A stretch of DNA of 48,251 nt from Aeropyrum sp. (GTDB lineage Archaea > Thermoproteota > Thermoprotei_A > Sulfolobales > Acidilobaceae): contig WANT01000061.1 of the NCBI GenBank assembly GCA_015521685.1, positions 1-48,251 on the forward strand. The letters are read 5' to 3'. Below the pieces are notes generated by a model. The model worked only from the letters and a program-made list of their open reading frames with translations. It was not told the origin of the DNA and did no database searches. Position 1 is the first letter of the stretch, and the number at the start of each line of letters is the position of its first letter. The position numbers were made by a program, and so were the translations under genes. This document shows positions 44,879-47,504 of this stretch, in pieces.

Positions 44879-45142
44879 TTACTGGTGTAGTACCCTAGTT
44901 ACTTCGAGTATTATGACCGTCTCTCTGGAGTCTCCTCTGAAGACTGGTTTTAGCGTGGAGATTTTAATCTGGATTCGAGATCTGGTCAGCTCCTGCAGGA
45001 TTCTAAGAGTATCGAACAGAGTGCATATAGCGTTGCCCGAGGCCCTTAACTTCAGTTGTTTGCCATCATTAAGTATTACAGCTAGCCGCCTGGCGAGGTT
45101 CTCTGGATTATCGTTGGAAGTAATCCTTAGTATGGCATCCAT
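44879..45142 (-). CDS. SpoVS-like (Alba-fold) small protein
   Basis: The 87-residue protein resembles Bacillus SpoVS along its whole length. The pattern starts MDAILRITSNDNPENLARRLAVIL, comparable with the SpoVS N-terminus (M-VLKVS--SNPN-VA-ALA-VLR). It goes on with a small-residue turn LRASGNAICTLFDTLRI and ends RETVIILEVTR. SpoVS has an Alba-like fold, so nucleic-acid binding is likely; an Alba paralogue is the alternative. The ATG start is clear. It stands alone, with no sporulation genes nearby. Family assignment is by remembered pattern only. Confidence 0.6.
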   Translation of the reverse strand: MDAILRITSNDNPENLARRLAVILNDGKQLKLRASGNAICTLFDTLRILQELTRSRIQIKISTLKPVFRGDSRETVIILEVTRVLHQ

Positions 45143-46567: not shown

Positions 46568-47072
46568 CTTTCACCAACTCTAGAGCCTCGGCTAGCGAGT
46601 GCCTGAAAGCTCCCTGAGGTGGTACCCCCCTTATCTTAGAGCTGTGGGGCTTTCCCAATTTCAATATGAGCCTCTTATTCTTAAGTTCTACTTCTACAAT
46701 TCTGCCCTCGATAATGCAGTATGCGACGACAACATCAGCCTTCGGGCTCTTCTGTAGGTAGCATGCTTCCAAGTCTTTCAGAGCTTCGGTCGGAACGGTC
46801 TTCGCGGGGCAGGAAGCCTTTACTTCGAAGGAAGAGGCCGCTTGGTACTCCTTAATCTTTTCTGAAAACGCTAGAAATTCTTTCAAACCGATCTTGAAAA
46901 CGAGTTTCCTCTCGGCCTCATCAACGAAGTGGAGTATCCCGCCGAGGCTTTTTAAGTCTCTTACGAATCTGGTGAGGATCTTGTCAGGCCTGATGTAAAC
47001 TGTTCCAATAATGTACTTGTTGCATTTAATTGAATGTACTCTTGTAATCCTCTCGATAACAATGCCAAGCAT
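46560..47072 (-). CDS. Hypothetical protein, first gene of the MgtC-like operon
   Basis: I do not recognise this 170-residue protein. It is soluble, with an N-terminal beta-rich part (IGTVYIRPDKILTRFVRDLKSLGG), a Lys-rich middle, and a beta-strand pair near residue 128 (RIVEVELKNKRLILKLGK). It has three Cys residues (88, 104, 119) without a zinc-finger spacing. Codon use fits the neighbourhood. It overlaps the MgtC-like gene by 8 nt, so it may work with that membrane protein. A TATA-like CATTATAGACC lies about 20-30 nt upstream. Confidence 0.6.
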   Translation of the reverse strand: MLGIVIERITRVHSIKCNKYIIGTVYIRPDKILTRFVRDLKSLGGILHFVDEAERKLVFKIGLKEFLAFSEKIKEYQAASSFEVKASCPAKTVPTEALKDLEACYLQKSPKADVVVAYCIIEGRIVEVELKNKRLILKLGKPHSSKIRGVPPQGAFRHSLAEALELVKDG

Positions 47073-47414
47073 CGTGTTGCCACCTCTGTTGGTCTATAAT
47101 GTTAGCCCTTCAGTGCGATCTCAGGGCCTCCCCTACAATTTGAATAGCCAAGCATTTTCATGTAATGGTCAGCCGGGGATAACATCTTCACACTGGCCTC
47201 AGTCTACCTCAATAACATCATCCCACATAAATCCAACATGGCTATTAGCCGAGCGGGCCCTCAGCAACACAGGCCCTCCTCATATCACCAGGCTGTGGTA
47301 TCTCGGGGTGCGAGCTCCCTTCACAGGGCCCCTGATAGATAGAGCGGTTTAGCTTCACGTCAAATATCTTTAATTCTATAAGCTGTCGTGGCGCTTGGAA
47401 AATATTAGTGGAGC
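47073..47414. other. 342-nt region between the hypothetical gene and tRNA-Ser
   Basis: No protein gene is seen. It holds the minus-strand C/D box sRNA at 47166-47225, a TATA-like element for the minus-strand hypothetical gene near 47090, and a possible tRNA promoter (TCTTTAATTCT, about 47367-47377). A plus-strand open frame here is antisense to the sRNA and not protein-like. Confidence 0.5.
47166..47225 (-). ncRNA. C/D box guide RNA (2'-O-methylation), targeting 23S rRNA
   Basis: On the minus strand the boxes occur in the right order. C box ATGATGT is at 47221-47215. Guide 1 (12 nt) is followed by D' CTGA, an 8-nt spacer and C' TGAAGA. Guide 2, TGTTATCCCCGG, is followed by D box CTGA at 47172-47169. 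Length and spacing suit archaeal C/D sRNAs. Guide 2 is perfectly antisense to CCGGGGAUAACA, the universal 23S rRNA segment at the peptidyl-transferase centre. By the D+5 rule the methylated base is the third G of GGGG, near E. coli position 2446. The guide 1 target was not identified. Confidence 0.8.
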
Positions 47415-47504
47415 GCCGGGGTGGCCGAGCGGCCCAAGGCGGCGGGCTTGAGACCCGTTGCCCCGGCGAGGGGCGCGCGGGTTCGAATCCCGCCCCCGGC
47501 GCCA
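47415..47504 (+). tRNA. tRNA-Ser (TGA)
   Basis: This is a class II tRNA with a long variable arm. Acceptor stem GCCGGGG/CCCCGGC, anticodon stem GCGGG/CCCGT with loop CTTGAGA (anticodon TGA), T-arm GCGGG-TTCGAAT-CCCGC. The discriminator is G73, which marks Ser rather than Leu. The CCA end is encoded (47502-47504). The variable arm is the stretch GTTGCCCCGGCGAGGGGCGC. No intron is seen. Confidence 0.96.

Follow-up and report, generated by a model that had tools for sequence, protein, structure and literature searches.

What is encoded beside a tRNA-Ser gene on an archaeal contig, and which RNA bases would it act on? The window (the whole 48,251-nt stretch of DNA that was analysed) comes from a 1.44-Mb MAG of a heat-loving archaeon in 68 contigs, and our comparison sample consists of 229 genomes of the class, 122 of them good. 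At gathering score, Rfam recovers only two tRNAs in the window, while the six matches in 47100-47400 that score well under threshold all belong to CD-box families. A plus-strand ORF of 113 aa (47011-47352) overlaps the locus and is taken as chance. Elsewhere in the window, a minus-strand ORF of 87 aa (44879-45142) is Alba-like, under the Pfam cut-off (22.9 vs 25 bits).

Architecture and distribution of sRNA1

The first-pass annotation described C, D′, C′ and D boxes with archaeal spacing on the minus strand, and this description holds: the element, which we call sRNA1, is complete (Table 1), with terminal C/D boxes, internal C′/D′ boxes, a 7-nt spacer between the D′ and C′ boxes, and guides of about 12 nt whose complementarity adjoins the D or D′ box and includes a paired fifth base on the 23S rRNAs of relatives. 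A strict scan of both strands (C and C′ at least 6/7 with the first TGA intact, D′ and D exactly CTGA, guides of 10-13 nt, spacer of 3-15) finds sRNA1 as the only element in the window and no element in 60 first-order Markov simulations of the window with equal dinucleotide make-up. The sequence thus confirms sRNA1 as an archaeal C/D-box sRNA that is complete and carries two guides. Contrary to the earlier proposal, the surrounding gap is not otherwise empty: it holds a second C/D-box sRNA, sRNA2, upstream of the first. Membership in three Rfam families was considered and rejected: over sRNA1, sR36 (RF01124) scores 15.8 bits against a gathering score of 55 and snoPyro_CD (RF00095) 16.3 bits against 45, while sR5 (RF01304) reaches 15.4 bits on part of sRNA2, with gathering scores of 40-55 bits across the three families.

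Table 1. Positions of the sRNA features and the adjoining tRNA gene in the window.
Feature	Position	Strand	Remark
sRNA1, C/D-box sRNA, C box to D box	47169..47221	-	Sole strict-scan match in window
sRNA1 terminal stem, 5′ side GTGG	47223..47226	-	4 pairs in kink-turn register, window copy
sRNA1 C box ATGATGT	47215..47221	-	6/7 to RUGAUGA; position kept in 25 aligned copies
sRNA1 D′ guide TATTGAGGTAGA, 12 nt	47203..47214	-	Antisense to 23S around E. coli C2498 (predicted D′+5)
sRNA1 D′ box CTGA	47199..47202	-	Read from sequence
sRNA1 C′ box GTGAAGA	47185..47191	-	6/7 to RUGAUGA
sRNA1 D guide TGTTATCCCCGG, 12 nt	47173..47184	-	Complementary to 23S CCGGGGAUAACA; predicted D+5 = E. coli G2446
sRNA1 D box CTGA	47169..47172	-	Read from sequence
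sRNA1 terminal stem, 3′ side CCAT	47165..47168	-	Partner of GTGG; covariation over 25 copies
sRNA2, second C/D-box sRNA	47261..47324	-	Just upstream of sRNA1
sRNA2 C box GTGAAGG	5′ part of 47324-47261	-	Weak, 5/7
sRNA2 D′ guide GAGCTCGCACC, then D′ box CCGA	guide 47317-47307	-	Read from sequence
sRNA2 C′ box ATGAGGA	47283-47277	-	Read from sequence
sRNA2 D guide GGGCCTGTGTTG	47276-47265	-	Read from sequence
sRNA2 D box CTGA	47264-47261	-	Read from sequence
tRNA-Ser(UGA) gene	47415-47504	+	Adjoins sRNA pair

The 25 aligned copies were chosen via both guide cores and include close relatives, and core conservation among them is a product of this selection. The terminal stem of these copies covaries: its mean is 2.72 pairs, which drops to 1.30 if each copy is given the 3′ flank of another; none of 2000 swaps reaches the native mean, and the best register is the one required by a kink-turn. 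Two of the 25 copies have zero pairs in this register. The spacers between the D′ box and the D guide range from 11 to 29 bases.

The D guide with its D box (GTTATCCCCGNCYGA) occurs in 72/229 class genomes and in 34/122 good ones, compared to 2 genomes for the reversed control. None of the 31 genomes of family f11 contains this motif, and the matches in G081 and G150, both without a C′ box, are probably due to chance. In G000, TCTACCTCAATA has a single exact match, which is the sRNA locus itself, and 16 more with one mismatch (17 in total vs 12 for the control). In 24/72 of these stretches, the D guide is preceded by a GAGGTA-type guide and D′ box; the same arrangement is found in 0/72 reversed stretches and averages 0.085, with a maximum of 1, over 200 shuffles. 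Including seven further carriers with slightly divergent boxes or guides (G004, G050 at C1:240758-240771, G134, G136, G017, G025 and G085), the double guide is present in 31 genomes from 12 genera and five families (f1, f4, f6, f7 and f10). Scanning named genomes for the double guide yields 15 records (10 Acidilobaceae, 3 other Desulfurococcales, 1 Pyrolobus and 1 Thermoproteota MAG), all of them pattern matches in a count from which the window's own record may be absent. Many relatives retain the D guide with a different D′ partner. Two observations concern individual loci: the sRNA1 copy of the congener G001 (L094) has lost an intact D′ box and adjoins several GGTTGAGG-like repeats, and an identical stretch of about 100 bases is found in two genomes of different families (L211 in G125 and L219 in G038), reflecting either contamination or transfer.

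Complementarity of the two guides to 23S rRNA

Searches of the MAG for its own LSU and SSU rRNAs returned no match, nor did a search with the helix-89 pattern. Because its own 23S rRNA is missing, we took target sequences from the congeners G003 and G005 and from other relatives. The LSU search is imperfectly sensitive, as it missed G018 and G038, in which the helix-89 pattern located a 23S stretch.

The D guide forms 12/12 Watson-Crick pairs with 23S CCGGGGAUAACA, and on G005 rRNA 1/1000 shuffled guides equals the window guide. The perfect 12-nt antisense match to CCGGGGATAACA that was originally reported is found in 5/6 relatives with a retrieved 23S, the exception being G042, which has AACG at the far end; CCGGGGATAAC is present in all six retrieved LSU genes, with the final A in five. 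In an annotated E. coli 23S sequence (2902 nt), this match begins at base 2440, which we take to be 2442 in standard numbering, the annotated copy being two bases shorter. With this shift, the placement fits the earlier assignment of D+5 to G2446.

For the D′ guide, the first-pass annotation had recognised no target and suggested an unknown RNA. We find instead that it pairs with the crenarchaeal 23S stretch CUACCUCGAUG, such that D′+5 falls on C2498. The duplex with GCTACCTCGATG covers positions 2-12 with 9 Watson-Crick and 2 G-U pairs, and 11/1000 shuffles match the window guide on G005 rRNA. A target search guided by the E. coli 23S fails because E. coli has TTTGGCACCTCGATG where several relatives have TTTGCTACCTCGATGTCGGC. 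The D′ and D targets start 52 nt apart, with the C2498 site downstream, and each is the best 23S duplex of its guide; the two stretches, at about 2442-2453 and 2495-2505, flank helix 89 of the peptidyl-transferase centre. A position-10 mismatch breaks the native D′ duplex of the congeners G003 and G005, for which 63 and 60 of 1000 shuffles, respectively, are as good. In G013, another 23S site outscores the C2498 site (24.2 vs 20.8). Among lineages without the C2498 guide, the D′ guides of G043 and G042 were scanned and score at shuffle level (532 and 801/1000). A tRNA target, for which a search had also been proposed, finds no support in the 30 of 40 own-genome tRNA loci covered, none of which has any of the exact D′ target cores tried nearby.

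Guide-target co-occurrence at base 2499 and alternative readings

The relevant 23S pattern is readable in 87/229 genomes. Bases 2497-2499 are ACC in 17 of these, ACT in 1 and GCT in 2, the last of which could pair via two G-U, while A occupies 2499 in 67 (63 ACA, 2 ATA and 2 TCA). Every D′ guide-pattern match was checked in its C/D context. Using patterns that can detect only ACC-fitting guides, we observe the C2498 guide in 10/20 genomes without A2499 (9/17 ACC, 1/1 ACT and 0/2 GCT) and in 0/67 with A2499, or, counted by genus, in 8/15 versus 0/31. Fisher tests give 4.6e-8 for genomes and 2.5e-5 for genera, both of which ignore shared ancestry, and the association is present in families f1, f4, f6 and f7. 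Within the readable-23S genomes, the guide that had seemed to be without a target is found only where the stretch can pair. By pattern search, eight ACC genomes have no C2498 guide, five of them from f15. Guides tracking the common ACA target were sought and set aside: since TCGATGTAG with a D′ box gives only 10 matches (10/229 genomes) compared to 20 for the reversed pattern, compensatory guides of this exact form are not seen. Separately, bacterial-type 23S stretches (TTTGGCACCTCG) occur in the archaeal assemblies G068 (C59) and G174 (C44 and C45), probably as contamination.

The two guides are also found apart. G016 has both, each in a separate sRNA, and in G008 (two copies, L193 and L194), G027 (L192) and G016 (L195) the C2498 guide has a different D guide as its partner, roughly ATGGAGGACCTCT, in which one base varies. 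An exact-substring search of the retrieved rRNAs gave no full match to ATGGAGGACCTCT, only GGTCCTCC in the 16S of G003 and G005.

These data bear on whether both guides are functional. If the D guide were real but the D′ guide no longer directed methylation of C2498 and served only as a structural half, one could account for the window D′ duplex having three positions that are G-U or unpaired, for the weaker duplexes of G003, G005 and G013, and for the relatives in which a different D′ guide accompanies the D guide. We consider this unlikely, as GAGGTA-type D′ guides occur in 31 genomes, the three bases past the D′ core, which the search left unconstrained, fit the target among the 25 copies (C 96%, T 88% and A 80%), and the C2498 guide is missing from every one of the 67 genomes with A2499.

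A second ambiguity concerns the D guide, whose ten-base core also pairs with 16S ACGGGGAUAACC, a fit absent from the first-pass annotation, placing D+5 at about E. coli 16S G147, so that the guide might act mainly there, or on both rRNAs, rather than on 23S G2446. In 3/5 relatives with both rRNAs (G003, G005 and G051), each scored with its native guide, the two sites tie at 29.0. The 23S site, however, is favoured over the 16S site by the guides of G043 (28.0 vs 25.0) and G042 (26.8 vs 25.8) and by the window guide on G005 (31 vs 26), and a D′ target 52 nt away in the 23S is typical of archaeal double guides (PMC7994747). Action on the 16S thus appears improbable, and we favour G2446. Finally, it is highly improbable that sRNA1 is a chance resemblance or a dead, unexpressed relic, as although the G001 copy is degraded in its D′ box, the conservation of sRNA1 lies well over control, its stem covaries and the simulations yield zero elements.

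The predicted particle, its counterparts and its neighbours

Our preferred reading rests on the observed architecture, conservation, complementarity, covarying terminal stem and guide-target co-occurrence, together with a fibrillarin gene that lies beside a Nop5 gene in the genome. On these grounds, sRNA1 is very probably a double-guide archaeal C/D-box sRNA gene directing methylation at G2446 and C2498. Support for the initial proposal of a C/D sRNA whose D guide targets G2446 comes from the architecture, order-wide conservation, covarying stem and genomic fibrillarin and Nop5. We infer that sRNA1 would be transcribed from the minus strand, probably jointly with the upstream sRNA2, and that binding of L7Ae, Nop5 and fibrillarin would give an ordinary sRNP in which the D and D′ guides direct 2′-O-methylation of 23S G2446 and C2498, respectively. 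Because the two targets sit on opposite sides of helix 89, a single particle could hold both strands apart, and it may do so during folding and release them after both methylations. In bacterial ribosomes, the C2498-G2454 and U2500-A2453 pairs extend helix 89 (PMC4690841). Dennis et al. proposed chaperoning for other dual guides and described the re-pairing of guide modules between sRNAs (PMC4644070). That the sRNP clamps both helix 89 strands in folding, that the C2498 guide is gained and lost with base 2499, and that modules are re-paired is a tentative picture, which we regard as possible rather than probable. If true, the system would document, in nature, how guides and their targets have co-evolved at the catalytic centre.

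When compared to known archaeal dual-guide C/D sRNAs (PMC4644070; PMC7994747), sRNA1 is alike in its boxes and guide length, in having two guides whose 23S targets lie within 100 nt of each other, in the fibrillarin and Nop5 of its host, in clustering with another C/D sRNA and in its tRNA-Ser neighbour, and its predicted mechanism does not differ. Well built and widely inherited, it belongs to a known class and is no new type of molecule. The pair of sites G2446 and C2498 is unnamed in the main text searched, although the supplementary site lists may include the likely orthologue in G050. What the reading adds is a concrete predicted job for an unannotated RNA gene, namely two ribose marks flanking helix 89 in the active centre of the ribosome, of which yeast makes one with a guide RNA and E. 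coli the other with a protein. From the numbering offset and the sequence, we take yeast Gm2815 to be the ribose of G2446. In yeast, snR38 guides 25S Gm2815, which is classed as PTC (PMC8307265). snR38 is a eukaryotic single-site guide and sRNA1 an archaeal double guide; the predicted site that they share may be convergent. In PMC11542601, the Gm2815/G2446 row of a plant-centred table has no Pyrococcus abyssi entry, and the ribose of E. coli C2498 is methylated by RlmM. RlmM is a stand-alone protein enzyme that uses no guide RNA, whereas the same ribose is the predicted site of the sRNA1 D′ guide, which, if this is true, would be the RNA-guided counterpart of the RlmM mark. Base 2499 differs among members of the order and provides a natural experiment in how guide RNAs follow or lose their targets.

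The neighbourhood of sRNA1 is partly shared among relatives. In 54/72 genomes, the D guide motif of sRNA2 is found no more than 400 nt upstream of sRNA1, and the 23S stretch that it fits, AAACACGGGCC, is present in 6/6 retrieved LSU genes. When relatives' own sRNA2 guides are scanned, the AAACACGGGCC duplex ranks first in 4/5 and second in G042; for the window guide, 395/1000 shuffles are as good. We consider AAACACGGGCC the likely target of the sRNA2 D guide, while the target scan of its D′ guide gave no convincing candidate. The tRNA-Ser(UGA) gene adjoins the sRNA pair in the window, G003, G004 and G005 and is more distant in G018 (5/10 loci scanned; L002, L004, L005 and L006); it is divergent from the pair except in G004 (L005), where it is co-directional and upstream. 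In Ignicoccus hospitalis, a C/D sRNA lies directly downstream of tRNA-Ser (PMC7994747). A sigma-70 promoter scan was set aside as unsuited to archaea; by eye, TATA-like stretches can be seen upstream of sRNA2 in G005 and G003.
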